This document shows positions 2,789-26,764 of a stretch of 26,764 nucleotides of DNA, piece by piece; the first letter of the stretch is position 1; every line of letters begins with the position of its first letter. The notes beneath the pieces are model-generated. The model made no database searches. It saw only the letters and a list, made by a program, of their open reading frames with translations, and was not told where the DNA came from. Location: the IMG/VR virus record IMGVR_UViG_3300007508_000586, positions 1 to 26,764 of that record; one strand, 5' to 3'. The position numbers were made by a program, and so were the translations under genes. The DNA comes from a virus.

Positions 2789-3883
2789 ATGGAAAAGTTT
2801 CAATTATCTGAAAATTTTATAAATAAATATAAAAGAAAAAAAGCACCTTTTGGTTTTAATGGTCTTGGTGAATTAGTTTATATGAGAACTTATTCAAGAA
2901 TCAAAGAAGATGGTAAAAACGAAAGGTGGTGGGAAACAGTTCGTAGGGTTGTAGAAGGCACTTATACAATGCAAAAAAGTTGGATTGACCAGCACCAATT
3001 AGGATGGAATCCTTGGCAGGCACAAAATTCTGCTCAAGAAATGTATGATAGAATGTTTTATATGAAATTCCTTCCACCTGGCCGTGGGTTATGGGCAATG
3101 GGAACTGCCATAACAGAAGAAAAGAATCTTTATGCTGCCCTTAATAATTGTGCATTCGTATCAACAAAAACAATTAAAGAAGATTACGCAAAACCATTTT
3201 GTTTTTTAATGGATGCATCAATGTTAGGTGTTGGAGTTGGTTTTGATACAAAGGGTGCTGGGGAAATTGTTATTAAAGGTGTAAATAAAGATAGAGGTGA
3301 AGAGGTATTTAAAATTCCAGATACACGAGAAGGTTGGGTAGAATCATTAAAATTATTATTAGAGAGTTATTTTCACGGAACTGCACCAGTATATTTTGAT
3401 TACACACAGATTAGACCTGCAGGTGCCCCAATAAAAGGATTTGGTGGCGTGTCAAGTGGTCACGAACCACTAAAAGAAATTCACGGAGAAATTAGAAAAG
3501 TATTAGAAAAGAATAGTGGAGAACCAATTACAACTACTACAATTGTTGATATAATGAACCTAATTGGTAAATGTGTTGTCGCTGGTAATGTTAGGAGATG
3601 TTTGCCTAAATGGTACGAAGTTCTTACTGAAGATGGTTTTAAGGAGATGGAAGAAATAACGAGAAATGATAAAGTTTTAACTATTGATGGATATAAGCAA
3701 GTTTTAAATACCTTTGATAGTGGGGAACAAAAAGTTCTTAAAATTAAAACATTAAATGGAACTGAATATGAAGCAACAGAAAAACATACTTTGTTAGTTT
3801 ATAACCAAGATAATGGCTTTGAATGGAAGATGGTAAAGGATATAGATAAAGATAAAGATTTTCTTGTAAAACAAAAAAAATAG
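2789..3883 (+). CDS. nrdJ: Class II ribonucleotide reductase, N-terminal half fused to N-intein segment
   Basis: Residues 1-270 match the N-terminal part of the monomeric adenosylcobalamin-dependent ribonucleotide triphosphate reductase (Lactobacillus leichmannii RTPR type). They include NNC with Cys121 (RTPR Cys119, one of the active-site redox pair), LPPGRGLWAMGT, the DTREGW motif and GKCVVAGNVRR. At Cys271 the sequence changes to an intein: CLPKWYEVLTEDGFK (block A, nucleophile Cys1), then TEKHTLLV (block B, TxxH). It stops at residue 364, giving a 94-residue N-intein. The rest of the enzyme is encoded from 4908. The role is reduction of ribonucleotides to deoxyribonucleotides for phage DNA synthesis, after joining to the second half. 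ATG at 2789 is preceded by AAAGGA. An accidental stop or sequencing error is unlikely, because both intein ends are intact and a separate gene fills the gap. Confidence 0.92.
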   Translation: MEKFQLSENFINKYKRKKAPFGFNGLGELVYMRTYSRIKEDGKNERWWETVRRVVEGTYTMQKSWIDQHQLGWNPWQAQNSAQEMYDRMFYMKFLPPGRGLWAMGTAITEEKNLYAALNNCAFVSTKTIKEDYAKPFCFLMDASMLGVGVGFDTKGAGEIVIKGVNKDRGEEVFKIPDTREGWVESLKLLLESYFHGTAPVYFDYTQIRPAGAPIKGFGGVSSGHEPLKEIHGEIRKVLEKNSGEPITTTTIVDIMNLIGKCVVAGNVRRCLPKWYEVLTEDGFKEMEEITRNDKVLTIDGYKQVLNTFDSGEQKVLKIKTLNGTEYEATEKHTLLVYNQDNGFEWKMVKDIDKDKDFLVKQKK

Positions 3884-5084
3884 TACCAGGAAACGTATGT
3901 TTTTTATCTTTTCTTATATTTATTATTGAATATAGGAGATAAAAAATGACACTTGAAATTGTAAAAATAAAATGTCGTATTTGTGAGAATGAATATGAAA
4001 CAAAAAAGAATAGAGATTATAGGATAAGACTTGAAAGTGGTTTATTTTATTGTAGTAAGAAATGTACGTGGAGTGATAAAGCAAAAAAAATGAGATATAA
4101 ACACCAATCTAAATTGATGAAGGAAAAATATGGATATGAAAATGCATTTCAATTTCCAGATTCTATTAAAAAAATACAAGAAAAGCGTAATGAAACTGAA
4201 ATAATGGAGAAGAAGATAGAAACTTTCCAAAGAAGATACGGTGTGAATAATGCACAACAAATTCCGGAAATTAAACATAAGACAATGAAAACTAATTTAG
4301 AAAAATACGGTGCTACAGCGTATGCGAATTCTGATGAGTATAAACAAATTAGAAAAGATTTTATAAATAAAGAATATGGCGTTGATTATTATACACAGAC
4401 AGATGAGTTTAAGAAGAAGGCTAAAGAAACAATTATTGAAAGGTACGGTAGAAAAGATTATTTCAAATTTGGAACTAAAGAATTTAGAGACAGAATGTTA
4501 GAATTGTATGGTGTAGAAAATGCAATGCATAATCCAGAGTTTGCAGAAAAGGCATTGAGTGGGTATCGTGGATATTATAACACTAATAAATTTTATATAA
4601 TGCCATCGGGAAAGAAAATTAAAATTCAAGGGTATGAAAATAAAACATTAGATAGGTTATTTGAATTAGGATTTAAAGAAAATGATATTTTATATAGAAA
4701 GAGAGATATGCCAGAAATATGGTATAATTATGATGGTAAAAAAAGACGATATTATCCAGATTTTTATATACCCAAAGATAATCTAATTGTTGAAACAAAA
4801 AGTACTTATACACTTGAATTTGACAAAGAAAAAAATAAGTTAAAATTTAACGCTGTGAAATCACTTGGATTTGATTTCAAATTAGACGTTTATTAGGAGA
4901 TAAAATTGTGAATGAATATGGAATAGAAGGTTTCAATTTAGAAGATTTTGAGCTTGTTACTATTATGGATATAGTTGATGATGGAAAAATTGAAAAAACA
5001 TGGGATATAGAAGTTGAAGATAAACATCATTTTTTTGTTAAAAATCCTGAAAATAGAGTAGATGAGATAATAGTATCACATAAT
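3599..5084 (+). mobile_element. Split intein with embedded homing endonuclease gene ('fractured gene' insertion)
   Basis: This composite element interrupts nrdJ between extein residues NVRR and TAEI. It comprises the N-intein (3599-3880, 94 aa beginning Cys), a free-standing endonuclease gene (3946-4896), and the C-intein (4908-5084, 59 aa ending VSHN), with Thr as the first C-extein residue. Block F (DIEVEDKHHFFV) and block G (VSHN|T) are visible in the C-part; blocks A and B in the N-part. Removing the element restores one continuous RTPR-like protein of 270 + 399 = 669 aa. Fractured genes with split inteins and a Vsr-like endonuclease were described from marine metagenomes (Dassa and colleagues, including the NrdJ-1 and gp41-1 inteins), so the architecture has precedent. 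That the halves splice in trans here is inferred. Confidence 0.88.
3946..4896 (+). CDS. Free-standing homing endonuclease, PD-(D/E)XK (Vsr-like) with zinc finger and YG repeats
   Basis: This 316-aa protein is encoded between the two nrdJ halves. Its N-terminus has a Cys4 finger (C10, C13, C36, C40). Residues about 60-205 hold six degenerate repeats, spaced roughly 22-35 residues apart, built around (K/R)YGxxN...PE(F/I), for example YGYENAFQFPDS and YGVENAMHNPEF; this repeat type is seen in phage homing endonucleases and probably reads DNA. The C-terminal 90 residues carry YYPDFYIP followed by IVETKST, the paired acidic and ExK residues of the PD-(D/E)XK/Vsr-related fold. The expected role is to cut nrdJ alleles lacking the insertion, so that repair copies the element in. 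AGGAGAT lies just before ATG 3946, so it is translated independently of the intein halves. Activity and target are not shown by the sequence. Confidence 0.85.
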   Translation: MTLEIVKIKCRICENEYETKKNRDYRIRLESGLFYCSKKCTWSDKAKKMRYKHQSKLMKEKYGYENAFQFPDSIKKIQEKRNETEIMEKKIETFQRRYGVNNAQQIPEIKHKTMKTNLEKYGATAYANSDEYKQIRKDFINKEYGVDYYTQTDEFKKKAKETIIERYGRKDYFKFGTKEFRDRMLELYGVENAMHNPEFAEKALSGYRGYYNTNKFYIMPSGKKIKIQGYENKTLDRLFELGFKENDILYRKRDMPEIWYNYDGKKRRYYPDFYIPKDNLIVETKSTYTLEFDKEKNKLKFNAVKSLGFDFKLDVY

Positions 5085-6284
5085 ACTGCGGAAATTGTAT
5101 TTGGTGATCCACATGATGAAGAATATTTAGATTTAAAAAATTATAAGGTAAATAAACACAGAGAAACATATGGTTGGACTTCCAATAATTCAATATACGC
5201 AGAACTTGGTATGGATTATACTGATGTATGTAAAAGGATAAATGATAATGGTGAACCAGGATTTGCTTGGTTAGAAAATATGAGAACATTTTCTCGTATG
5301 CAAAATGGTGGTGATGATAAAGACCATAGAGTTGCTGGTGGAAATCCTTGCCTGGAACAAAGTTTGGAAAGCTACGAGCTTTGTTGTCTTGTAGAAACAT
5401 TCCCAGACAATCATGATTCATTAGAAGATTATCAGAGAACACTAAAATATGCGTATTTATATGCCAAAACGGTAACACTTGGTAAAACACATTGGAGTGA
5501 AACCAATCGTGTTATGTTAAGAAATAGACGAATTGGTTGTTCAGTAAGTGGTGTTGCTCAATTCATTACAAAACACGGAATGGAAGAATTAAGAAAGTGG
5601 TTAGAGAGTGGATATGATACAATACAAGATTGGGATAAAGTTTATTCAGATTGGTTCGCGGTTCCAAAATCAATTAAGACCACAAGTGTAAAACCAAGTG
5701 GTACAGTTTCACTCTTAGTAGGAGCAACTCCAGGAATGCATTATCCTGAGTCAAGATTCTACATAAGACGAATGAGGTTGTCAAAACATTCAGAATTAAT
5801 AGAACCATTAAGAAAAGCAGGTTACAAATTAGAACCAGCCTTTGGTTCAGAAGATTCTACGATGGTGGTAGAGGTGCCAGTTGATGTAGGAGAGGGTATA
5901 AGGACAGCGGCTGAACTTTCGATTTGGGAACAATTCAGTTTAGCCGCATTCTTACAACGACATTGGGCAGATAACCAAGTTAGTTGTACAGCAACATTCA
6001 ATCCCGAAACAGAAGCTGAAGAATTACCATATGTGTTGAATTATTTTCAATATAGATTAAAAGGAATTTCTTTGTTACCAAGACATCCATTAGGAGCTTA
6101 CAAACAAATGCCATATGAAGCAATAGATGAAAAGTTATATAACAAGAAATTAAAAAAATTAAAAACACTTTCGTTTGGAGTAATTAAAAACGAAGAAGCA
6201 GAAGTCGACCTTTTTTGCAATAATGATTCATGTGAGATACCACCATTAAGTGGAGATAACGATGATCAAGAATATGGAAATTAA
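4908..6284 (+). CDS. nrdJ: Class II ribonucleotide reductase, C-intein segment fused to C-terminal half
   Basis: Residues 1-59 form a C-intein (DIEVEDKHHFFV, then VSHN at the end). Residue 60 (Thr) begins the C-extein, TAEIVFGDP. The catalytic motif NPCLEQ gives Cys148, matching the thiyl-radical Cys408 of RTPR, and Glu150 (Glu410). Cys159, eleven residues after Cys148, matches RTPR Cys419, the redox partner of Cys119. VKPSGT and the barrel strands follow. CNNDSC near the end (Cys437, Cys442) matches the C-terminal reductant pair with the same spacing as RTPR. All catalytic residues of a working class II enzyme are therefore present across the two halves. The start is GTG 4908 with AGGAGA 7 bp upstream; the nearby ATGs are out of frame. 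The enzyme needs adenosylcobalamin (family knowledge). Confidence 0.93.
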   Translation: MNEYGIEGFNLEDFELVTIMDIVDDGKIEKTWDIEVEDKHHFFVKNPENRVDEIIVSHNTAEIVFGDPHDEEYLDLKNYKVNKHRETYGWTSNNSIYAELGMDYTDVCKRINDNGEPGFAWLENMRTFSRMQNGGDDKDHRVAGGNPCLEQSLESYELCCLVETFPDNHDSLEDYQRTLKYAYLYAKTVTLGKTHWSETNRVMLRNRRIGCSVSGVAQFITKHGMEELRKWLESGYDTIQDWDKVYSDWFAVPKSIKTTSVKPSGTVSLLVGATPGMHYPESRFYIRRMRLSKHSELIEPLRKAGYKLEPAFGSEDSTMVVEVPVDVGEGIRTAAELSIWEQFSLAAFLQRHWADNQVSCTATFNPETEAEELPYVLNYFQYRLKGISLLPRHPLGAYKQMPYEAIDEKLYNKKLKKLKTLSFGVIKNEEAEVDLFCNNDSCEIPPLSGDNDDQEYGN

Positions 6285-6363: not shown

Positions 6364-9120
6364 ATGAAAAAAAATAATCTAATATCTGTATTTTTAACAA
6401 TGATGATGCCAATGTTCCTATATGGTCAGGTAGTCGGAACTGTTACAGATACAGAGTCGAACCCATTGGCAGGAGCTAATGTTGTTGTAGAAGGAACTGA
6501 TTTAGGTTCAGCTGCGGATGCAGGTGGAGCTTACTCTATTGATTTAGGGGCAGGAACTTATACACTTACAGCTTCTTCAATTGGATATGCATCTCAAACA
6601 GTAGAAGTTGAAGTAGTAGAGGGAACGGCTAGTACCGCAGACTTCTCACTTTCAGTATTGGCATTAGAGATGTCAGCATTGGAAGTTTTAGCTTCTCGTG
6701 CCGATGAAACTACACCTGTTGCATATACTACTGTAGGTAAAGAAGAATTGGAATTTCGTCTTGGTTCACAAGATCTTCCAATGTCTTTAAATACTACACC
6801 AAGTGTATATGCTACGCAACAAGGTGGTGGTGCGGGTGATGCACGTATCAATGTTCGTGGGTTTAATCAACGAAATGTGGCAGTAATGATAAATGGTGTT
6901 CCACAAAACGATATGGAAAACGGATGGGTCTATTGGTCTAATTGGGATGGTGTAGCTGACGCTTCCAATTCTATTCAGATGCAAAGAGGTCTATCAGCTG
7001 TTAATTTAGCTACTCCTTCCATTGGTGGAACTATGAATATCATAACAGATCCTGCTATTCACGAAAAGGGTGGAAAGTTCAAACAAGAAGCGGGTGCAGG
7101 CGGGTTTCTTAAAACCACTTTCAACTATAATTCAGGTCTAATCAATGATAAATTAGCACTTAGTGGAACGGTAGTTCGTAAAACTGGTGATGGTATTATT
7201 GACGGAACTTGGACAGATGCTTGGGCATACTACTTTGGTGGTAGTTATGCAGTAAGTGATGACCAACGATTTGAATTGTACGCGATTGGAGCTCCACAAC
7301 GACATGGACATAACCTATACAAACAGAATATCGCAACCTACTCACAAGAGTTGGCTACAGATATTGGATGGGATGATGAAGGTAACGGCTACGACCCAAC
7401 GGCATTTGCCGATGGTGAAAAGTTTGAACACGAAGCAGGTAGGTTTTTCAATCAGAATGTTGCCCCAGTTGACCCATCATATACAGGTAAACAATACTGG
7501 TATATGTATGGTGCTCGAACTGTTGATAGATATGGTTCTGATTTCCTAAATGAAAGAGAAAACTTCTTTCATAAACCATTAGTGAACTTAAATCACTTCT
7601 TAACCTTAAATGACAAAACTCGTTTGAGTTCTGTTCTTTATTGGAGTGGTGGTTCAGGTGGTGGAACAGGAACATATGGTAGTGTAAAACGATTTCCTGC
7701 AATAGAAGATAATGCTTGGTACGCAAGTTCACCTTGGACATGGGATTGGAATGGTGAAATTGCTGAAAATTCAGCAAATGTCGATTCTACCTGGTCTGAT
7801 ACTGAAAATCGTTCCACAGGCATTCTTCGTAATTCTATCAATCGCCAAAACACTTATGGTTTGATTTCTAAATTGAACTATGATGTTAGTGATGAACTTG
7901 AACTTCAAGTTGGTCTTGATTGGAGAACAGCAGGTATTGAACACGCTCGTGAAGTTCGTGATTTACTTGGTGGTGATTACTATGTTGATTTCGCCGATGA
8001 CAATGCACCTGATGGTAAAGTTGTTAAGTTAGGTGATATTATTGCCTATCACAATGAAACCACAGTTGATTGGTTAGGTGGATTTATACAAGGTAAATAC
8101 GATACTGAAAAATTCAACCTTTATGGTATGGGTGGAGTATCCACTATTGGATATACTTATCACAACCATTTTGCAGTTGATGCTGATGTAGTTGAGGCTG
8201 ACGCTATCACAACCTTTCAAGCAAAAGGTGGTGCTAGATATAATCTTGACGACAGACTTTCAGCATTTGCTAATGTTGGGTATGTTCAAAAACCACCAAT
8301 TCTTGATAATGTGATTGATTATGATGGAAATGTATCTACAGATCCAGATAATGAGAAATTCACAGGTTTGGAATTCGGCGGTGAATACAGAAGTGGATTG
8401 GTTTCTGTTAAGGGTAGTTATTACAATACCCAATGGAAAGATAGAAACCTTACCAAATCTGTTACGACGGGTCAAGGTTCTTCAGGTGATACGGACATCA
8501 TCTATCTTACTGGTGTAAATCAAAGTCATACCGGTTTTGAGATTGAGTCTAAAGTGGCTCTTCACGAAATGGTTGATTTGGATGTAGCAGTAAGTGTTGG
8601 TGATTGGTATTTTGATGGAGACGCTAAAGGTGATTACACAGAGATGGAATACAACGATGAAGGACAGATTATCGGTCAAACATCTACTGAATACGAATAT
8701 GCATTAGACAAACTAAAAGTTGGTGATATGCCACAGACAGCATATATTGGTGGTCTTACACTAAAACCAATTAAAGGTCTTTATGTTCAAGGACTTTATA
8801 GATGGTATGATAATCATTATGCCGATTGGAGTCCTGATGCTCGTGAAGTTGATGGTGATGCAGATAGAGCCCAAGTTTGGAAAACTCCGTCTTATGGTAA
8901 GTTAGATTTACATCTATCTTACAAATTACCAGAAGTGGCTGGATTAGATTTGACCCTTACAGGTCATGTCTTTAATGCACTTGATGAAGTTTATATTCAA
9001 GATGCAACTGATAACAGCAAGTATAATGGGTATGGTGATAAACTTCACTTGGCTCATAACGCTGAAGTATTCTTGGGAACACCAAGATACTTTAACTTAG
9101 GTATTGTTGTTACTTTCTAG
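6364..9120 (+). CDS. TonB-dependent outer-membrane receptor with carboxypeptidase-regulatory-like domain
   Basis: This 918-aa protein begins with a signal peptide: MKK, a hydrophobic core, then LYGQ near residue 22. Residues 23-100 form a CarboxypepD_reg-like beta-sandwich (VVGTVTDTESNPLAGANVVV, then GAGTYTLTASSIGY). The plug domain follows at about 115-235, with the family signatures INVRGFNQRNVAVMINGVP, ENGWVYWSNWDG and TPSIGGTMNIITDP. About 680 residues of barrel end in a terminal Phe (YFNLGIVVTF), the beta-barrel assembly signal. Such receptors import large nutrients (siderophores, cobalamin, glycans) using TonB energy; the substrate cannot be read from sequence. The N-terminal extension is typical of Bacteroidota-like hosts. 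The gene has a GAGGAG ribosome-binding site and its own terminator, sits between nrdJ and DNA polymerase, and is visibly more G+C-rich than the polymerase. It is intact, with no stop or frameshift. It was probably acquired from a host. Confidence 0.92.
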   Translation: MKKNNLISVFLTMMMPMFLYGQVVGTVTDTESNPLAGANVVVEGTDLGSAADAGGAYSIDLGAGTYTLTASSIGYASQTVEVEVVEGTASTADFSLSVLALEMSALEVLASRADETTPVAYTTVGKEELEFRLGSQDLPMSLNTTPSVYATQQGGGAGDARINVRGFNQRNVAVMINGVPQNDMENGWVYWSNWDGVADASNSIQMQRGLSAVNLATPSIGGTMNIITDPAIHEKGGKFKQEAGAGGFLKTTFNYNSGLINDKLALSGTVVRKTGDGIIDGTWTDAWAYYFGGSYAVSDDQRFELYAIGAPQRHGHNLYKQNIATYSQELATDIGWDDEGNGYDPTAFADGEKFEHEAGRFFNQNVAPVDPSYTGKQYWYMYGARTVDRYGSDFLNERENFFHKPLVNLNHFLTLNDKTRLSSVLYWSGGSGGGTGTYGSVKRFPAIEDNAWYASSPWTWDWNGEIAENSANVDSTWSDTENRSTGILRNSINRQNTYGLISKLNYDVSDELELQVGLDWRTAGIEHAREVRDLLGGDYYVDFADDNAPDGKVVKLGDIIAYHNETTVDWLGGFIQGKYDTEKFNLYGMGGVSTIGYTYHNHFAVDADVVEADAITTFQAKGGARYNLDDRLSAFANVGYVQKPPILDNVIDYDGNVSTDPDNEKFTGLEFGGEYRSGLVSVKGSYYNTQWKDRNLTKSVTTGQGSSGDTDIIYLTGVNQSHTGFEIESKVALHEMVDLDVAVSVGDWYFDGDAKGDYTEMEYNDEGQIIGQTSTEYEYALDKLKVGDMPQTAYIGGLTLKPIKGLYVQGLYRWYDNHYADWSPDAREVDGDADRAQVWKTPSYGKLDLHLSYKLPEVAGLDLTLTGHVFNALDEVYIQDATDNSKYNGYGDKLHLAHNAEVFLGTPRYFNLGIVVTF

Positions 9121-11816: not shown

Positions 11817-12536
11817 ATGAATAAACAAAAACTAATTAAATTTATTAGCAAATATTATTTGAATGGCACGGTTAATTCAGTAATATTAACTGGTGAATTA
11901 AATAAACTGAAAACACGATTCATATCTGGTGATAAAACATTGCTTGGTGAATTAGAAATGAATAGCTGGAATTTCGGAGATTGCGAAATAGGGGTATATA
12001 ATACAGAACAATTGTTAAAATTGTTATTAGTATTAGATGAAGATATTCTTGTTTCTATTAATACTGCAGGGGATAAATCAATTGCCTTAAAGGTTAGTGA
12101 TAAAACTTCATTTATTAATTATATGTTGAGTGATATATCTGTAATTAGTAAACCACCAGCATTAAAGTCTATTCCAGAATTTGAATTGGAGGTTGACATT
12201 ACACCACAAGTTATTAATAAATTTATTGCTGGAAAAAATGCTTTGCCGGAAACGGATGATTTCACGGTAATTACTGATGAAATGAATACAACATTGGTCA
12301 TTGGATATGCTTCTATTAATACTAATAGAGTAACAATTCCGGTTACTACTACAAAGTTTAAAGATATTAAAAATGTTTCTTTTAATGCTAATATTTTTAA
12401 AGAGGTGTTAGTTGCTAATAAAGATTGTGAATCTGCTACATTAAAAGTTAGTAGTGAAGGATTATCTAAAATTACTTTTAAAATTGATGATTTTGATGCA
12501 ACATATTGGTTAGTAGCTACAACTGACGTTGATTGA
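11817..12536 (+). CDS. Sliding clamp (DNA polymerase processivity factor), T4 gp45-like
   Basis: This 239-aa protein lies between a gp43-like polymerase and a gp44-like loader, as expected for gp45 (228 aa in T4). The sequence shows alternating strand and helix blocks with the ILTGELNKLKTRF, EQLLKLLLVLDED and VLVANKDCESATLKV segments of gp45-type clamps, though the family is poorly conserved. Three subunits would form the ring that tethers polymerase to DNA; in T4 the clamp also activates late transcription. The start is ATG 11817 after AGGAG. The last 8 bp overlap the next gene, which begins at TTG 12529. Confidence 0.85.
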   Translation: MNKQKLIKFISKYYLNGTVNSVILTGELNKLKTRFISGDKTLLGELEMNSWNFGDCEIGVYNTEQLLKLLLVLDEDILVSINTAGDKSIALKVSDKTSFINYMLSDISVISKPPALKSIPEFELEVDITPQVINKFIAGKNALPETDDFTVITDEMNTTLVIGYASINTNRVTIPVTTTKFKDIKNVSFNANIFKEVLVANKDCESATLKVSSEGLSKITFKIDDFDATYWLVATTDVD

Positions 12537-13299
12537 TACTTGTGATACTACAAAGGTTTTTTTGCGTCCAATATTAAAATCTTTAGCAAAAAGTATTATA
12601 GAAAAAAATCATTATAGCGGTAGATTATCATCTTGTAGATATTCTTTAGGGATTTTTTACCAATCTGGAAAGTTTCATAAGTTTTTTGATGAAAAAGAAG
12701 AAAAGTTAATCGGGTGCATTACATATGGATTTCCTATTGGTAGAAGAGTTCTTGGTTCAATTTTTAAAGAAGAGTTAGAACTTACTACTAAAAATATATT
12801 GGAATTAACGAGGCTTTTTATACATGATGGATATGGAAAAAATATTGAATCTTATGTTATATCACAATCTTTTAAATGGTTGAAAGAGAATGCTTCAGAT
12901 GTTAAAGTGTTAATTTCTTATGCAGATCCAGAACAGAAACACACTGGAAAAATATATCAAGCAACTAATTGGTTATATCAAGGATGTGGGGAAATTCAAA
13001 TGGCACCAACGTATAGCTTGAAATTAACAGAAGATGGGGAATGGGTGCACAGTAGAACTGTATATTCGCGATATGGAAGTAGTAATGTGGAGCATTTAAA
13101 AAAACAATTGGGACACACATTTTGGTTAAAAAAAGAAGCTTCAAAACATAGATATTTATATTTTCTTGGAAATAAAAAAGAGAATAAGTTGTTTATGGAT
13201 ATGTTAAAGCATTCATTATTGCCCTATCCAAAAGATGTACAAGATGATTCAGAACTAATAAAAATAGAGGTTAATAATAAGGGTATTGTTAATGAGTAA
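12529..13299 (+). CDS. Mom-like DNA modification protein (GNAT fold)
   Basis: This 256-aa protein resembles phage Mu Mom, which converts adenine in phage DNA to N6-carbamoylmethyladenine and so blocks many restriction enzymes. Visible hallmarks are AKSIIEKNHYSGR near the N-terminus (His28, Tyr29, Ser30), LTRLFIHDGYGKN, and near residues 127-150 ISYADPEQKHTG then IYQATNWLYQG, the most conserved Mom segment. The start is TTG 12529: the frame has no ATG or GTG before the conserved segment, and the gene overlaps the clamp end by 8 bp. Its own 3' end overlaps the clamp-loader gene by 8 bp. This placement inside the replisome operon implies co-expression with replication. Mu mom is tightly regulated; no equivalent control is visible here. 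The exact modified base is inferred from family membership. Confidence 0.82.
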   Translation: MIDTCDTTKVFLRPILKSLAKSIIEKNHYSGRLSSCRYSLGIFYQSGKFHKFFDEKEEKLIGCITYGFPIGRRVLGSIFKEELELTTKNILELTRLFIHDGYGKNIESYVISQSFKWLKENASDVKVLISYADPEQKHTGKIYQATNWLYQGCGEIQMAPTYSLKLTEDGEWVHSRTVYSRYGSSNVEHLKKQLGHTFWLKKEASKHRYLYFLGNKKENKLFMDMLKHSLLPYPKDVQDDSELIKIEVNNKGIVNE

Positions 13300-17896: not shown

Positions 17897-19285
17897 ATGG
17901 GTAAGAAGAAGATTTTACTTTTATCCGATGACCTACGGATGAGTAGTGGTGTTGGTACAATGTCGAAAGAGTTTGTACTCGGCACCACACACCATTATGA
18001 TTGGGTTCAAATTGGAGGAGCTATAAAACATCCAGAAGAAGGTAAAGTAGTTAATATGGATGAGTCAATACGCAATGAAACAGGAGTTGAAGATGCAAAA
18101 TTAACGATTTATCCTATTAATGGTTATGGAAACCAAGAATTATTACGAGAGGTAATGATCAGAGAACAACCAGATGCTATCTTGCATTATACAGATCCTC
18201 GATTTTGGAGATGGTTATATGAAATGGAGCATGAATTAAGACAAGAAATTCCTATATATTATTATAATATTTGGGACGATTTTCCAGCTCCAAAGTACAA
18301 CGAGTTCTTTTATGAGTCTTGTGATTTAATAATGAATATATCTAAGCAAACAGTAGCTATTGTTAATGATGTTTGGAAAAAAAATCCACCAGAAGATTGG
18401 CAAGTTACTTACTTACCACACGGAATTAATGAAAATGTGTTTTATCCTATAAGTGTTTTTGATGACGAATATAAACGAGTAGAATCGCTGAAAAAACAGC
18501 TTACTGATGATAGTGTTGAATTTATATTATTTTATAATAATAGAAATATTCGTAGAAAGATGCCAGGAGATGTTGTGTTAGCATTTAAAACATTTTGTGA
18601 TACACTACCGAAAGAAGAAGCTGATAAATGTGCTTTATTGATGCACACACAACCAAAAGATGAAAATGGAACGGATTTACCAGCAGTTTGTGAAGCTATA
18701 TGTCCGGAGTATAAAGTATATTTTAGTGATAAAAAATTAGAACCACGAGAATTAAATTATTTATATAACATGGCTGATGTTACAATTAATATTGCATCTA
18801 ACGAGGGATTTGGATTAGGAACTTGTGAATCATTGATGTGTGGAACACCAATCATTGTAAATATTACGGGCGGATTACAAGATCAATGTGGATTTAGATT
18901 AAATGGTAAACACTTAACAGAAAAAGATTATTTAGAAATAAAAACATTACATGATGATAGAAAATGGAAAAATAATAAAGATTTAACTTGGGGAGATTGG
19001 GTCAAGCCGGTATGGCCGTCTAATAGAGCTTTGGTTGGATCAATACCAACTCCATATATTTTTGATGATAGATGTAGATTTGATGATGCTGCTCAAGCAA
19101 TTAAAGAATGGTATGATATGGGACACGAGAGTAGAAGCAAATGCGGTGTATCTGGACGTGAATTTGTTACAAGTAAAGAATCTATGATGACCGGTAAAAT
19201 GATGAGTCAAAATTTTATTGATCACATGGATAGAGCATTTGAAAAGTGGAAACCAAGAAAACGTTATAGTATTTTTGAAGGATAG
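17897..19285 (+). CDS. Glycosyltransferase, GT-B fold, family 4-like
   Basis: This 462-aa protein starts with KKILLLSDDLRMSSGVGTMSKEF, which resembles the N-terminal GT-B domain with a Gly-rich acceptor/donor loop. The C-terminal domain has NEGFGLGTCESLMCGTPII, the E-x7-E motif (Glu303, Glu311) of retaining GT4 enzymes, followed by the GG loop. It would transfer a sugar from an activated nucleotide to a glycan or, in some phages, to hydroxymethylated DNA. It opens the glycan island, immediately followed by another GT4 gene. No signal peptide or membrane segment; cytoplasmic. Donor and acceptor unknown. Confidence 0.88.
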   Translation: MGKKKILLLSDDLRMSSGVGTMSKEFVLGTTHHYDWVQIGGAIKHPEEGKVVNMDESIRNETGVEDAKLTIYPINGYGNQELLREVMIREQPDAILHYTDPRFWRWLYEMEHELRQEIPIYYYNIWDDFPAPKYNEFFYESCDLIMNISKQTVAIVNDVWKKNPPEDWQVTYLPHGINENVFYPISVFDDEYKRVESLKKQLTDDSVEFILFYNNRNIRRKMPGDVVLAFKTFCDTLPKEEADKCALLMHTQPKDENGTDLPAVCEAICPEYKVYFSDKKLEPRELNYLYNMADVTINIASNEGFGLGTCESLMCGTPIIVNITGGLQDQCGFRLNGKHLTEKDYLEIKTLHDDRKWKNNKDLTWGDWVKPVWPSNRALVGSIPTPYIFDDRCRFDDAAQAIKEWYDMGHESRSKCGVSGREFVTSKESMMTGKMMSQNFIDHMDRAFEKWKPRKRYSIFEG

Positions 19286-19288
19286 AAT

Positions 19289-20626
19289 ATGAGTACAGAT
19301 AGTAAGCCGCTATGTTTAGTAACCGCTCCGGTTGCAACTCGCTCGGGGTATGGAAGCCATAGCAGAGATTTATGCAGATCTTTAATTAAATTAGATAAAT
19401 ATGATGTAAAGATATGGCCGGTCCGATGGGGAGCCACTCCTCAGAATGCTTTAAATGAAGATGATCCGAATGATAAAGTTATTATTGATAGGTTATTAAG
19501 TGCTCCAAATTTACCACAACAACCAGATTTACATATTCATATTGTTATACCAAATGAATTTCAGCCAGTTGGTAAATTTAATATAGGGATAACGGCGGGT
19601 CTTGAAACTACAAATTGTCCTCCTGCGTGGATAGATGGAATGAATAGAATGGATTTGAATATTGTACCATCTACTTTTGTAAAAAGTGTTATGAACGATA
19701 TAGCTTTTGATGTACAAGATGAAAGAACAAAGGAACATAAAGGAATATTAAAAAGTGAAAAACCGATAGAAGTTTTATTTGAGGGAACAGATACAAACAT
19801 ATTTAAAAAAACTAATGAGTTTTCAAAAGAATTGGTTGAAGAAATGAAAACTGTTAAAGAAAGTTTTAATTTTTTATATGTAGGTCATTGGTTAAGTGGT
19901 GGTTTGGGGAAGGATAGAAAAGATACTGGAATGATGGTTAAAGTATTTCTTGAAACGTTTAAGAATATGAAAAAAGCTCCTGGTCTTATAATGAAAACTA
20001 GCGGAGCAGGATTTTCTATATTAGACAGAGAAGATATACTTGAAAAAATAAGTTATATTAAAAATACAATTAAAGGAAAGTTACCGAATATTTATGTATT
20101 GCATGGCGATTTAATGGATGAAGAAATGAATGATTTATATAATCACCCTAAAGTTAAAGCTCACGTTTCATTAACACACGGTGAAGGATTTGGAAGACCA
20201 TTACTTGAAGCTACTATTTCACAGAAACCAGTGATAGCTTCCAATTGGAGCGGACATTTAGATTTTTTACCAAAAAGTTCTGCTATTTTAATTGATGGTG
20301 CTTTACAAAAAGTAAATAAGGAATCATTTCCAAAAGATATGCACGTTGAGGGATCTCAATGGTTTACTGTAAATTATCAAGAAGCTTCTGCAAAAATGAA
20401 AGATGTTTATAAGAATTATAGAAAGTATACTCTTAATGCAAAGAAACTTGGAACAATAAATAAGTCGAAGTTTTCATTAGATGCTATGACCAAAGAATTT
20501 GGTAAAATACTTGATAAGTATGTCCCAGAATTTCCTAAAGCGGTGGAATTGAAATTACCAAAATTAAAAAAAGTAAATTCATCTCAACCAAAAAAACTTA
20601 AATTACCTAAATTAAAACGGATATAG
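19289..20626 (+). CDS. Glycosyltransferase, family 4-like, with basic C-terminal tail
   Basis: This 445-aa GT-B protein has an N-terminal APVATRSGYGSHSRDL loop and a C-terminal HGEGFGRPLLEATISQKPVI with the E-x7-E pair (Glu299, Glu307). It differs in sequence from the preceding GT4, so the pair likely adds different sugars or makes different linkages. The last 30 residues repeat KLPKLKK and KLKLPKLKR, a highly basic amphipathic tail that might bind membrane or nucleic acid. It begins 3 bp after the previous stop. The conserved N-terminal loops use markedly G+C-rich codons. Confidence 0.87.
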   Translation: MSTDSKPLCLVTAPVATRSGYGSHSRDLCRSLIKLDKYDVKIWPVRWGATPQNALNEDDPNDKVIIDRLLSAPNLPQQPDLHIHIVIPNEFQPVGKFNIGITAGLETTNCPPAWIDGMNRMDLNIVPSTFVKSVMNDIAFDVQDERTKEHKGILKSEKPIEVLFEGTDTNIFKKTNEFSKELVEEMKTVKESFNFLYVGHWLSGGLGKDRKDTGMMVKVFLETFKNMKKAPGLIMKTSGAGFSILDREDILEKISYIKNTIKGKLPNIYVLHGDLMDEEMNDLYNHPKVKAHVSLTHGEGFGRPLLEATISQKPVIASNWSGHLDFLPKSSAILIDGALQKVNKESFPKDMHVEGSQWFTVNYQEASAKMKDVYKNYRKYTLNAKKLGTINKSKFSLDAMTKEFGKILDKYVPEFPKAVELKLPKLKKVNSSQPKKLKLPKLKRI

Positions 20627-21621: not shown

Positions 21622-22236
21622 ATGAAGTTATCATATGGTATAACAGTTCATAATGAAGCAAATGAACTGAATAAGTTATTGAAATTTCTTGTAAATAATA
21701 TACGAGAAGAAGATGAAATAGTTATTTGCGATGACTATTCTGATGCAGCTACTCAAAGTGTTATTAAATTATATAGTAGTACTGAAAATATAAATGTATA
21801 CCAGAGAAAACTTAATAATGATTTTGCAGCACAAAAGAATTCAGTAATAGAAAAAGCAACGGGCGATTATATATTTCATATTGATGCGGATGAGCAGCCT
21901 CATAAAACGTTAATAGAACAATTACCAGAAATTATAGAAATGAATGATGTAGAACTTTTGTGGATCCCACGGGTGAATACTGTAAATGGTATTACAAATC
22001 AACACATCCAAAAATGGGGATGGGTAGTTTCAGAGGATGGCTGGATAAATTTTCCCGATTATCAAAGCAGGGTCTTTTATCGTTCCAATGAAATTAGGTG
22101 GGCAAATAAAGTACATGAACGTATTACTGGGTGTAAAACTTATGCACACCTTCCGCCATTAGAAGAATTATCATTATATCACCACAAAACGATTGAGAAA
22201 CAAGAAGAACAAAATAATTTTTATAATAGTATATGA
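21622..22236 (+). CDS. Glycosyltransferase family 2 (WaaE-like)
   Basis: This 204-aa GT-A protein starts LSYGITVHNEANELNKLL, has the DxD metal-binding motif IDADEQ (Asp88, Asp90), and contains FPDYQSRVFYRSNEIRWANKVHE, typical of the WaaE/SunS-like branch that builds lipopolysaccharide core or short glycans. It is shorter than most GT2 enzymes (about 250-300 aa), lacking a C-terminal extension. Its stop overlaps the next gene as ATGA. It starts 26 bp after the previous gene and heads a run of tightly coupled genes lasting to the window end. Confidence 0.88.
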   Translation: MKLSYGITVHNEANELNKLLKFLVNNIREEDEIVICDDYSDAATQSVIKLYSSTENINVYQRKLNNDFAAQKNSVIEKATGDYIFHIDADEQPHKTLIEQLPEIIEMNDVELLWIPRVNTVNGITNQHIQKWGWVVSEDGWINFPDYQSRVFYRSNEIRWANKVHERITGCKTYAHLPPLEELSLYHHKTIEKQEEQNNFYNSI

Positions 22237-23249
22237 TTAAAATAAAATTATATGAGCATGAAATTCATAGAAATGAAACTACATTTAGACCATTTTTAAT
22301 GGCACAAAATATATTTAGAGATGTTGGTATAGAGTTTACTGCTTCTGATGATTATGATTTTGCTTTTGTTGGTCAGGCAAGTATAATAGATAAGAAAAAA
22401 TCATTAAAAGAATCAGTAGAAAAGGGATTGGATTTTGTTTCTAAAATTACTGGAGAGTATTTTATAGTTGATGGTCAAGATGCAACTACATTAATTGGAA
22501 CGATAGATGTATTTAGAGAATCAAATGCATTATTATTTCTTAAAAATTCTTATTTAAAAAATTTTGATTTATATAAAAAAGGCTGGGCTAATGGTAGAAT
22601 GTATTGGGGGATAGGGGAATATTCAGTTCCAGATATTGATGAATTAAAGCCCAAAATGAAACTTACTGGTTGTAATTGGCTACACACAATTCAGCCAAAT
22701 TGGTTAGATTATAACCAAAAAAAATCATATGATATATCTTGCATGTTTGGTTATCCTACCCAAGTACCAGTTTATGAACATGAATTGTGCCAAACAGATT
22801 ATTATGATTTACACAGAAAAAATTTAATGAGTATTATTGGTGATAAATATAAAATAGCTAGTTTAGTAGATGGCAAAAGAATACCAATACAAGATTATTA
22901 TCAAAAGATGTTTGATTCAAAGATTATTATGGCTCCGATTGGATATGGTGAAATGGCACCTCGAGATTTGGAGTCAGCAATGTTTGGTTGTGTATTAATT
23001 AAGCCAGACATGAGTTATATTTTATCAGAACCATTTATATACGAAGATGATAAAACATATATTGCAGTAAATTACGATTGGTCAAATTTAGAAGAAAAAA
23101 TAGATTATGTATTGTCAGATTATAATACTGTACGGGAAAGACTTGTTGAAAATATGAGAAAACAATATGAAGAAAAATATGATTTGAAAAATTTAGTTTT
23201 ACATTTATATAATATATTAACAAATTTAAGTGAGGTTAGCGAAGAATGA
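22233..23249 (+). CDS. Putative glycosyltransferase, exostosin/GT-B-like
   Basis: In this 338-aa protein the C-terminal half carries KMFDSKIIMAPIGYGEMAPRDLESAMFGCVLIKPD, with the layout of the donor-binding domain of exostosin-like and GT1-like proteins (a conserved Gly followed by Arg/Glu and a small-residue helix). The N-terminal half has no clear motif. The position, with 4-bp overlaps to GT genes on both sides, supports a glycan role. The exact family is uncertain. Confidence 0.68.
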   Translation: MIKIKLYEHEIHRNETTFRPFLMAQNIFRDVGIEFTASDDYDFAFVGQASIIDKKKSLKESVEKGLDFVSKITGEYFIVDGQDATTLIGTIDVFRESNALLFLKNSYLKNFDLYKKGWANGRMYWGIGEYSVPDIDELKPKMKLTGCNWLHTIQPNWLDYNQKKSYDISCMFGYPTQVPVYEHELCQTDYYDLHRKNLMSIIGDKYKIASLVDGKRIPIQDYYQKMFDSKIIMAPIGYGEMAPRDLESAMFGCVLIKPDMSYILSEPFIYEDDKTYIAVNYDWSNLEEKIDYVLSDYNTVRERLVENMRKQYEEKYDLKNLVLHLYNILTNLSEVSEE

Positions 23250-24268
23250 GATTTGCAATGGTAATAGATGGATGTGTTCAGAGATCTTATTATGTAAAAG
23301 ATAAGAGATCTTATAAATTTGGTACAAATGAACCATATTCACACCATCATTCTATTGGTAATGAATGTCATTTAGGAATTTGGGGTTGGCCATTTTTATT
23401 TGACGGATATTTTATAAATTGGACGGAGTTTGAAGACCTCCCTACTTTAGATTTAGATGTTATTATGGTAGCTATTGAAAAAAATCCAAATAAATATAAT
23501 GTTAGTATGTTGCGCAAGAAGTATCCTAATGCTACCATTGTCAGTTTTATAAAAGAAGCCTATTGGATAAATTCAAGTTTAGAACAAAGGGTAAACTTTT
23601 TTAAATCTTGTGATGTCATAACATTTCCTTGGAATGTACAGCGAGATAACAATGGTATATCTGTTCTAAGAGATGCAAATGGTAACGTAATTACTTATAG
23701 TGTAACTAGTTTAGGAATAGATAATTTAACTGAACTTTGTGGTAAACAAGTTCATTATGTTCCACAACCACATGACGTAGATTTCTTATATGATAGATAT
23801 TTTCAACAAGAAAAACAAATAAAAATTTTAAACTACAAAGCACCAGAAAAATCACCAGGTGAGGATACTGAAAGTTTTGTGGATTATATTAGTAAAAAGT
23901 ATGAGATACCTACATTTCAACACGTGGTTAAATATTCAGGACCCGAGTGTAAACAATGGGAACAATTTTTAGAAGGTATAACATCTTCTTTATATTGTTT
24001 TAATTTAGATCCTGTTAAGACTGGTGGTTCAATGGCAGTTCAATGTGCATCTTTGGGTATTTTAAATATTGGTGGTCTTCAATATTCACATGAAATATTA
24101 TTTTCTGAAACTGCTACAAATGAATGGGAAAGATTAGAAGAAGTATTTCAGAAGATACACTCAGAACCGAAATTTAGAGATGATATTATTAGTTATGCTT
24201 TTAATAAAGCAAGAAGTCATTATTCACATGAATCTGTAAGGAAAAGATTTTTAGAGGTAGTAAGTTAA
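23246..24268 (+). CDS. Putative glycosyltransferase-like protein
   Basis: This 340-aa protein looks like a two-domain GT-B protein. The N-terminal half contains VSFIKEAYWINSSLEQRVNF and DVITFPWNV; the C-terminal half has LYCFNLDPVKTGGSMAVQCA, then LGILNIGG, like a donor-binding site where a surface list of sugars is selected. No canonical E-x7-E or DxD is obvious. It overlaps the preceding gene by 4 bp and directly abuts the next. Assignment rests on layout and context. Confidence 0.58.
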   Translation: MRFAMVIDGCVQRSYYVKDKRSYKFGTNEPYSHHHSIGNECHLGIWGWPFLFDGYFINWTEFEDLPTLDLDVIMVAIEKNPNKYNVSMLRKKYPNATIVSFIKEAYWINSSLEQRVNFFKSCDVITFPWNVQRDNNGISVLRDANGNVITYSVTSLGIDNLTELCGKQVHYVPQPHDVDFLYDRYFQQEKQIKILNYKAPEKSPGEDTESFVDYISKKYEIPTFQHVVKYSGPECKQWEQFLEGITSSLYCFNLDPVKTGGSMAVQCASLGILNIGGLQYSHEILFSETATNEWERLEEVFQKIHSEPKFRDDIISYAFNKARSHYSHESVRKRFLEVVS

Positions 24269-24982
24269 ATGAAAGTTTATGTAGGGACTAGTGATAAATA
24301 CATTCATCTAATAGAAATTTATCAATTTCTATTTAATAAATTTTGGGGTAATGGATATGAAGTAGTCGTGTTGGGATACCAAGAACCTCAGTTTAAATTG
24401 GATGATAATTTTACTTTTCATTCTTTGGGAGTGTCTAGAAATAATCCAAGTGAATGGGGAACTGATTTAAAAAGATATTTTGAAGGTATAGATGATAAGT
24501 TTTTTATTTTTATGTTAGAGGATATGTTTCCAGCAAATCCTGTTAATTTTGATTTGTTAAATGACATTATAAATTATTTAGATGATAACATAGGAAGATT
24601 TAACATAACAAATACTCATGATAGATGTAGATATTTAGACACGGTAGAGGATGGTAAGTTAAATGGATATACTTTATTAAAGTGTACACCAACATCTAAT
24701 TATAGAATATCTACAATACCATCCATATGGAACAGACAATATTTTTTGAGGTATTTAAAAAGTGAGATGTCACCTTGGGAATTTGAAGTTGATGGTTCAA
24801 ATGAAGCAAAAGAAGATGGTTTTAGAATCTTAGGAATAAAAGATACATATGCTTTAGATAGTACCCTCTCTGTCAGACGAGGTAATTTAAGTATAGACCT
24901 AGATTTTTCTGTTTGTGATAATCCTAGTGACTCTGTTAGTGAAGAGGTTCTTAACGAGATGAGAGAAAAAAACATAATATGA
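24269..24982 (+). CDS. Putative glycosyltransferase, GT-A-like
   Basis: In this 237-aa protein, KFFIFMLEDMFPANPVNFDLL carries an LED motif at the position of the metal-binding acidic motif in small GT-A enzymes. WGTDLKRYFEGIDD before it and RISTIPSIWNRQYFLRYLKSEMSPWEFE after it resemble phage and capsule sugar transferases. It abuts the upstream stop and overlaps the next start by 4 bp. Near its 3' end (from about 24850) the codon use shifts toward the pattern of the following sugar genes. Confidence 0.62.
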   Translation: MKVYVGTSDKYIHLIEIYQFLFNKFWGNGYEVVVLGYQEPQFKLDDNFTFHSLGVSRNNPSEWGTDLKRYFEGIDDKFFIFMLEDMFPANPVNFDLLNDIINYLDDNIGRFNITNTHDRCRYLDTVEDGKLNGYTLLKCTPTSNYRISTIPSIWNRQYFLRYLKSEMSPWEFEVDGSNEAKEDGFRILGIKDTYALDSTLSVRRGNLSIDLDFSVCDNPSDSVSEEVLNEMREKNII

Positions 24983-25872
24983 ACGTTCTAGTAACAGGCG
25001 GTAGTGGTTTAGTGGGTAGACATTTAAAAGATATAGAACCTAACTACTTCTATGTTTCATCTGAGTACGATTTACTGAATACGTATTCAATTGATTCTAT
25101 GTTTGACAAGTATAGTCCAGATGCTGTTGTTCATCTAGCTGCTAGGGTTGGTGGTATAGTAGATAATATTACTAATCCAGTTGATTACTATGAACAAAAT
25201 GTTTTGATGAATACAAACCTAGTCAAGAAGTGTCATGAGTATGGTATAAATAGATTGATTGTAATGGGAAGCTCGTGTAGTTATCCAAACGTAGTTGACA
25301 GTTATCCAATGAAGGAAGAGAGTTTGTTTGATGGTAGACCACCAAGTGATAACTTTTCATATGCAATATCTAAAAGAGCATTAATATCACACATAGACTC
25401 TTATGTAAAACAATACAAAAAGAATTGGTGTTACTTAATACCATGTAACTTATACGGTGAACATGATAAGTATGAAGAACACCATAGTCACTTCATATCA
25501 GCATTAATAAAAAAGATTTACGAGTCTGTGGACACGATAAATATATGGGGAACTGGTAAACCACTAAGACAGTTCATGTACGCTGGTGATTTAGCTAAAG
25601 TTATACAATACATGATTAAAAATAATATTGTAGATAATTTTAATGTGGCACCTGACTTTAATTACTCTATAGAAGAGATGACTAAAATAGGGTTGAAGGC
25701 TTGTGGTAGAGAAGATTTAGAAATAGTTTATGATAAGACAAAACCAGATGGTCAGTATAGAAAAGATATTGATTCATCTAAATTACTTTCAGTATTGAAA
25801 GATTTTAAATTCACTTCGTTAGAAGAAGGTATAAGGAGAGTTTATGATAACTTTAGTAAAAGACACGATTGA
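24979..25872 (+). CDS. GDP-L-fucose synthase / ColC-like epimerase-reductase
   Basis: This 297-aa short-chain (extended SDR) enzyme has TGGSGLVG (NADPH-binding GxxGxxG, 7-13), HLAARVGGI, GSSCSYP (97-103) with the Ser and Cys used in C3/C5 epimerisation, the YxxxK catalytic pair (Tyr128, Lys132), NLYGEHD and KPDGQYRK. Fcl/WcaG is 321 aa. It converts a GDP-4-keto-6-deoxymannose-type sugar to the L-series by epimerisation and reduction. Because the next gene is ColD-like, the ColC function (GDP-L-colitose formation) is as likely as GDP-L-fucose. The start, ATG 24979, overlaps the previous stop as ATGA. Gmd, which would make the precursor, is not in the window. Confidence 0.88.
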   Translation: MNVLVTGGSGLVGRHLKDIEPNYFYVSSEYDLLNTYSIDSMFDKYSPDAVVHLAARVGGIVDNITNPVDYYEQNVLMNTNLVKKCHEYGINRLIVMGSSCSYPNVVDSYPMKEESLFDGRPPSDNFSYAISKRALISHIDSYVKQYKKNWCYLIPCNLYGEHDKYEEHHSHFISALIKKIYESVDTINIWGTGKPLRQFMYAGDLAKVIQYMIKNNIVDNFNVAPDFNYSIEEMTKIGLKACGREDLEIVYDKTKPDGQYRKDIDSSKLLSVLKDFKFTSLEEGIRRVYDNFSKRHD

Positions 25873-26764
25873 TGAAAAAGACATAGACCGATTGGTGGAT
25901 TGGTTAAAAACCTATCCAAGATTAACGAAAGGTAAGGTAACCTTAGAGTTAGAGAGAAAGTACGCGGATTGGTTGGGAACTGAGTATTCAGTATTTTGTA
26001 ACTCTGGTTCTTCTGCTAATCTACTAATGTTATCAGCTATAATAGAAAAGTATAAGTCTAAGAAGGTGGTTGTTCCGTCAGTTGCTTGGGCTACTGATTT
26101 GGCACCTGTAATGCAGTTAGGATTGAAACCACTATTATGTGATTGTAACATGCAAGACCTATCAGTAGACTTAGAACATCTAGAAAAAATATTTAAAACG
26201 GAATCACCAGACGCTCTATTATTAGTTTCAGTTTTAGGTTTAGTTCCTAACATGGGTAAGATAGTAGAGTTGTGTGAAAGGTATGGTGTCATTTTATTGG
26301 AAGACACTTGTGAATCAATGGGTTCAGAATTTAGGGATAAAAAACTTGGTACTTTTGGTTTGATGTCTTCCTTTTCTACTTTCTTTGGACACCACATATC
26401 CACAATTGAAGGTGGGTTTGTCTGTACGGATGATGAAGAGTTGTATGAACTTTTGGTATCGTTACGAAGTCATGGTTGGGCTAGAGAGTCAAGTGTAGAA
26501 ACACAGTTTAAATTACAACAAGAATGGGATGTTACTGATTTTGATTCTCTATATACATTTTACTATCCAGGTTATAACGTTAGGTCTACAGACTTACAAG
26601 CGTACATAGGGTTAACACAGATAGATAAACTAGATGATTGGGGTAGAAAGAGAGAGTCTAACTTTCACACCTATTATGATAATATCAGAGGTGATTATTG
26701 GAAACCAAAATATGATTTAAATAATTTTACATCAAACTTTGCCTACCCAATAATACATCCTAAT
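25844..26764 (+). CDS. ColD-like GDP-4-keto-6-deoxymannose 3-dehydratase, 3'-truncated by window end
   Basis: This is a 307-residue fragment of a DegT/DnrJ-family PLP enzyme. It has the phosphate-binding loop CNSGSSANLL (52-61), LLEDTCESMG with Asp154 for the pyridine ring, LGTFGLM, and then FGHHISTIEGG. His183 takes the place of the usual PLP-lysine, as in ColD (His188) and the E1 3-dehydrases, so it should remove a 3-hydroxyl rather than transaminate freely. PGYNVRSTDLQAYIG follows, also like ColD. ATG 25844 has AGGAGA 5 bp upstream and overlaps the previous gene by 29 bp. A minus-strand ORF over this gene is a shadow. The substrate (GDP-sugar) is inferred from the ColC-like neighbour. Confidence 0.87.
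   Translation, partial: MITLVKDTIDEKDIDRLVDWLKTYPRLTKGKVTLELERKYADWLGTEYSVFCNSGSSANLLMLSAIIEKYKSKKVVVPSVAWATDLAPVMQLGLKPLLCDCNMQDLSVDLEHLEKIFKTESPDALLLVSVLGLVPNMGKIVELCERYGVILLEDTCESMGSEFRDKKLGTFGLMSSFSTFFGHHISTIEGGFVCTDDEELYELLVSLRSHGWARESSVETQFKLQQEWDVTDFDSLYTFYYPGYNVRSTDLQAYIGLTQIDKLDDWGRKRESNFHTYYDNIRGDYWKPKYDLNNFTSNFAYPIIHPN

Follow-up and report, generated by a model that had tools for sequence, protein, structure and literature searches.

Colitose is a rare and strongly antigenic sugar that has been described in the O-antigens of a small number of bacteria. In the bacterial clusters the genes run in the order gmd-colC-colD, where ColC (GDP-L-colitose synthase) is an SDR of the GDP-fucose synthase family and ColD, or WbdK (PDB 2gms, 3b8x), is a GDP-4-keto-6-deoxy-D-mannose 3-dehydratase of the DegT family with His in place of the catalytic Lys of aminotransferases. 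In GDP-fucose synthase, a Cys/His pair carries out epimerisation and Ser, Tyr and Lys the reduction; the human enzyme (TSTA3/FX; PDB 4bl5) serves fucose alone. E1 (RfbH; PDB 3bcx), the CDP-4-keto-6-deoxyglucose 3-dehydratase, shares the DegT fold and the His for Lys, and has four Fe-S cysteines and a reductase partner, E3. E1 and SpnQ bind a [2Fe-2S] cluster and require a reductase, whereas ColD binds no cluster and its intermediate is hydrolysed (PMC8987622). Among viruses, GDP-L-fucose genes have been reported for cyanophage S-SCSM1, in which Gmd and a GMER-type SDR (gmd-fcl) lie in a glycosyltransferase island (PMC9602691), and rare sugars are made by giant viruses (PMC10117803). Text searches of a literature collection that covers few subscription papers turned up neither a colitose nor a GDP-3,6-dideoxy pathway in phages, which is weak evidence of novelty.

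Here we describe a pair of phage genes that probably encode the intermediate and final steps of a GDP-3,6-dideoxyhexose pathway leading from GDP-mannose to GDP-L-colitose. The pair lies in an IMG/VR virus record of 26,764 bases, the whole of which was analysed (the window). The window, from a marine phage that has dozens of relatives, contains Pfam-supported genes for a family B DNA polymerase, a DnaB-like helicase and a ribonucleotide reductase, together with clamp-like and clamp-loader-like ORFs recognised by eye. A glycan island extends from about 17.9 kb to the window end, and the SDR–DegT pair comes last in it (Table 1), at the place given by the first-pass annotation (24979-26764). The GT4-like glycosyltransferase genes are comparably placed in related contigs. 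The three ORFs that precede the pair had no family match in a profile search; relatives carry similar ORFs at this place, and the ORFs upstream of the pair in these relatives are possibly glycosyltransferases.

Table 1. Positions of features in the 26,764-base window.
Feature	Position	Strand	Remark
Class II ribonucleotide reductase with intein-like insertion	2789-6284		
DUF7487 ORF	3946-4896		Mid-way in the insertion region
TonB-dependent-receptor-like protein	6364-9120		918 aa, among replication genes
Mom-family protein	12529-13299		PF25680
Two GT4-like glycosyltransferase genes	17897-19285, 19289-20626 (17897..20626)	+	Upstream of pair, same island
GT2 glycosyltransferase	21622..22236	+	Same island as pair
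Three end-to-end ORFs	22233-23249, 23246-24268, 24269-24982 (22233..24982)	+	Immediately 5' of pair
Extended SDR, GDP-L-fucose-synthase (GMER) family	24979..25872	+	297 aa, complete
SDR Cys100	25276-25278		
SDR Tyr128	25360-25362		
SDR His171	25489-25491		
DegT-family PMP-dependent sugar 3-dehydratase (ColD-type)	25844..26764	+	307 aa of about 384; contig ends at residue 307
His183 codon	26390..26392	+	Aligned with ColD catalytic His188; replaces aminotransferase Lys

The SDR was recognised by Pfam Epimerase (E 2.4e-48) and by the NCBIfam model for GDP-L-fucose synthase (E 2e-61), although its 208 bits miss the equivalog cut-off of 500; a phage Fcl from outside the phage-pair SDR group (L012) likewise fell slightly short, with 488 bits. 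Its best sequence match was a GDP-fucose synthase, and its model (pLDDT 91.2) gave human GDP-L-fucose synthase as best fold match (TM 0.91), which is also its nearest solved relative, at 33% identity. The initial description of the protein as GDP-fucose-synthase-like is supported. The catalytic set (Ser98, Cys100, Tyr128, Lys132 and His171) is present and is kept throughout the phage-pair SDRs, with the epimerase residues Cys100 and His171 invariant. In family, catalytic set and position before the 3-dehydratase the phage SDR resembles ColC, with which it is 31-38% identical; the clade as a whole stands at about 30-37% identity to Fcl and ColC. This fully supported clade comprises nine phage-pair proteins together with an acidobacterial one (L017); it adjoins human TSTA3 and a small number of bacterial proteins on the same branch, apart from the SDRs of gmd-colC-colD clusters. 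A joint clade of the phage-pair SDRs with ColC was rejected (AU test, p-AU 8.9e-5), the ColC references having been picked by gene order in such clusters and not as assayed proteins. The DegT proteins of cyanophage ACG-2014f (L013) and megaphage LR756502 (L014) are paired with SDRs from other lineages. In one contig (L009:9098-10894), the full SDR gene is immediately preceded by a 196-aa ORF and a truncated copy of its own start, an arrangement suggestive of an insertion that duplicated this part of the gene.

The DegT start overlaps the end of the SDR gene by 29 nt, and the near relatives of the encoded protein have 381-384 residues; complete homologs are encoded at L002:10001-11155 and L004:10001-11155. 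The protein matches PF01041 (E 2.7e-54) and contains all three segments to which the first-pass annotation had drawn attention, LLEDTCESMG, FGHHISTIEGG with His183 at the place of the catalytic Lys, and PGYNVR. The first His of the motif was kept in 63 of 64 viral representatives in a motif scan. ColD was both the best profile match (E 8.5e-97) and the top solved relative (E 2.1e-55, against 1.2e-33 for E1 and 1.9e-29 for perosamine synthase), and the two proteins have in common the His for Lys, EDxCES, PGYNVR and the lack of Fe-S cysteines; the ColD motif itself reads YSHHIATMEGG. ColD also ranked first in Foldseek with the model of a full-length relative, L002 (E 3.4e-29; perosamine synthase 1.3e-27), which has a pLDDT of 83.9 and its minimum near the active-site loop 183-190; the modelled fold alone does not decide between ColD and perosamine synthase. 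Perosamine-type aminotransfer was rejected because it requires the Lys where the window protein has His. Residues His183, Trp82, Glu157, Thr187, Arg214 and Arg247 agree with ColD, and at Trp82, Glu157, Thr187 and Arg247 the phage protein differs from E1, which has Phe, Asp, Met and Lys. In addition, the four [2Fe-2S] cysteines of E1 are absent from the window protein, the aligned columns reading S--T.

The phage DegT proteins form a well-supported clade inside a large group that has the motif GHHxSTIEGG and lies apart from both canonical ColD and E1, and a joint clade with canonical ColD was rejected (AU test, p-AU 3.3e-5). This tree and that of the SDRs were both built by a quick method, with SH-aLRT as the sole branch support, and the AU-tested groupings were chosen once a first tree had been inspected. 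The first-pass annotation had placed the two proteins with ColC and ColD. Orthology with ColC and ColD is rejected and this membership is in part refuted, with the SDR falling beside the human-type GDP-fucose synthase branch, whereas the chemistry proposed at the same time, GDP-4-keto-6-deoxymannose to GDP-L-colitose, is not refuted and is the best explanation of the pair given the Gmd linkage in relatives. Judged by sequence, the enzymes are akin to the known bacterial colitose enzymes and come from different branches of their families. Bacterial members of the GHHxSTIEGG group adjoin Gmd and Fcl in some cases and CDP-glucose dehydratase or TPP-enzyme pairs in others. Since the bacterial neighbours differ, substrates vary within the group, and His183 alone is therefore insufficient to assign the substrate; for the viral members, gene linkage assigns it. 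Several SAR11-type genomes (L068, L076, L081, L087, L088) carry a His-type DegT of this broad group next to genes resembling CDP-glucose 4,6-dehydratase; the DegT enzyme may be a CDP-linked 3-dehydratase distinct from both E1 and ColD. Megaphage LR756502 encodes a second His-type DegT (L014:15559-16860), which is nearer E1 and has cysteines at some of the Fe-S positions.

The SDR–DegT pair was seen in nine viral contigs, with DegT identities of 38-75% and the two genes mostly overlapping or abutting, and this recurrence in independent contigs rules out chance or an assembly artefact. Gmd is the next gene after DegT in L004, L005, L007 and L011 and lies immediately upstream in ACG-2014f (L013; gp223-gp225), an isolated phage. 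As with ColD, the DegT gene thus adjoins a GDP-fucose-synthase-family SDR and, in phage relatives, Gmd too, although the order in the nearest phages is SDR-DegT-Gmd. Compared with solved structures, the L004 Gmd gave E ~1e-97 with GDP-mannose 4,6-dehydratases and 9e-20 with CDP-glucose 4,6-dehydratase; the phage Gmds keep Gmd-type motifs, and those of the short type score 395-410 bits, slightly below the curated NCBIfam cut-off of 415. A wider scan comprised 80 viral loci, 64 of them non-redundant at 90% DegT identity. Among the 64, Gmd lay at most five genes away in 43, a GMER-type SDR in 33, and both in 28. Gmd was directly downstream of DegT in 23/62 loci against a background of 5.3% of island genes (p 4e-14), and a GMER-type SDR directly upstream in 17/60 against 4.1% (p 2e-10), binomial p values that are optimistic because they assume independent loci, an assumption that related phages violate. 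Neither gene was nearby in 21 of the 80 loci. As a control, 80 unrelated viral loci taken from around the receptor gene described below were without homologs of the pathway genes. Gmd is held by 16 of the 19 related viral records. It is absent from the window, whose contig ends within the DegT gene, and the Gmd of this phage is presumably encoded beyond the contig end or by the host.

From the observed gene structure, catalytic residues, family and fold, recurrence and Gmd linkage we infer the following route, with its substrate, product, stereochemistry and acceptor. GDP-mannose supplied by the host would be converted by Gmd to GDP-4-keto-6-deoxy-D-mannose, from which the DegT protein, with PMP and with His183 for Lys, would eliminate the C3 hydroxyl. 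Since the Fe-S cysteines are lacking, the product, GDP-4-keto-3,6-dideoxymannose, would be expected to be released by hydrolysis, as with ColD. The SDR, for which we propose the activity of a GDP-4-keto-3,6-dideoxymannose 5-epimerase/4-reductase, would then invert C5 and reduce C4 with NADPH to give GDP-L-colitose. Finally, the glycosyltransferases of the island would transfer the sugar to its acceptor, most probably phage proteins or some other cytosolic molecule.

GDP-L-fucose is also within reach of a GMER-type SDR with Gmd, a point against colitose as the product. The SDR and Gmd might make GDP-L-fucose, with the DegT enzyme on a side branch from the same 4-keto intermediate to another sugar, so that the two genes would be neighbours and not encode successive steps. 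The SDR does adjoin human-type GDP-L-fucose synthases and has the human enzyme as best fold match, and cyanophage S-SCSM1 has gmd and fcl with no such His-type DegT gene beside them. However, the phage SDR gene, unlike that of the fucose-only human enzyme, is paired with a 3-dehydratase gene; in most of the closest contigs the two genes overlap or abut, SDRs from distinct lineages are likewise paired with DegT in L013 and L014, and the same two families are adjacent in bacterial colitose clusters. We therefore regard separate roles as unlikely. Somewhat less likely again is a DegT enzyme that does act as 3-dehydratase on GDP-4-keto-6-deoxymannose, followed by an SDR without C5 inversion or with other stereochemistry, which would give a different GDP-3,6-dideoxyhexose such as a D-sugar: the SDRs do form a clade of their own, at only some 30-37% identity to Fcl and ColC alike, but the invariance of the epimerase Cys100 and His171 in the pair SDRs argues for inversion. 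A CDP- or dTDP-linked 4-keto-6-deoxyhexose (abequose, paratose or tyvelose type) or a heptose or branched-sugar intermediate is a very improbable DegT substrate, for although bacterial members of the broad group, including those of the SAR11-type genomes above, lie beside CDP-glucose dehydratase or TPP-enzyme pairs, 0/80 viral loci had a CDP-glucose dehydratase motif or a TPP pair while 54/80 had Gmd, and with the E1 Fe-S cysteines absent as well the CDP-linked route was rejected. Given no CDP-glucose dehydratase in the viral loci and the linkage to Gmd and the SDR, the GDP-4-keto-6-deoxymannose 3-dehydratase route is the best reading.

The make-up of the islands bears on how the sugar might be used. 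Only one of 1378 viral-island proteins had at least four predicted membrane spans (155 aa, not flippase-like), against 87 of 1210 in the bacterial loci; as references, the prediction gave nine spans for E. coli K-12 wzxC and eight for wcaD. Because Wzx- or Wzy-like multi-span membrane proteins (flippase, polymerase) are missing among the 1378, the viral islands seem unable alone to export or polymerise a surface polysaccharide, and use of colitose as an O-antigen sugar is unsupported. The sugar is more likely to go on phage proteins of the virion or another cytosolic acceptor than on a host surface polymer, and it might still feed a host pathway. It is conceivable, if somewhat short of an even chance, that a widespread virus-carried cassette of Gmd, human-type GMER and non-ColD His-type DegT reached GDP-L-colitose or a new GDP-3,6-dideoxyhexose separately from the bacterial colitose genes, and that it decorates virions and not host O-antigen. 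By motif, genes of GT11, the alpha-1,2-fucosyltransferase family, were found near DegT in 21/80 viral loci and 0/80 control loci; two further genes with the same motif, in L005 and L013, were confirmed by Pfam. If GDP-L-colitose is indeed the product, these phages would be viral producers of a rare and strongly antigenic sugar. The finding would also explain a common pair that carries just the labels 'aminotransferase' and 'nucleotide-sugar epimerase' in the genomes of cyanophages and marine viruses, and would permit a direct test of phages coating their own proteins with deoxysugars.

Other sugar genes accompany the pair in relatives. Just 3' of it, L002:11876-13393 encodes a viral protein with a metallo-beta-lactamase fold and a Rieske domain, the domain pair of CMP-sialic acid hydroxylase. 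In another phage island, genes for a cytidylyltransferase, a Lys-type DegT aminotransferase and NeuB are consecutive (L004:15121-17841) and constitute a probable nonulosonic acid route.

Outside the island, the Mom-family protein (E 7.6e-46) suggests DNA base modification by the window phage, and the insertion that interrupts the ribonucleotide reductase, within which the DUF7487 ORF sits, has Intein_splicing and Hint matches. The TonB-dependent-receptor-like protein has a signal-like start and CarbopepD_reg_2 and Plug domains. Relatives of it occur in no fewer than 330 viral contigs; the best 80 share 73-84% identity with it, mostly over the full length, and it is also present in 3 of the 20 related viral records. 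A SusC-like receptor has been reported in one marine megaphage (PMC9723777), and a phage-encoded outer-membrane receptor of such frequency merits separate study.
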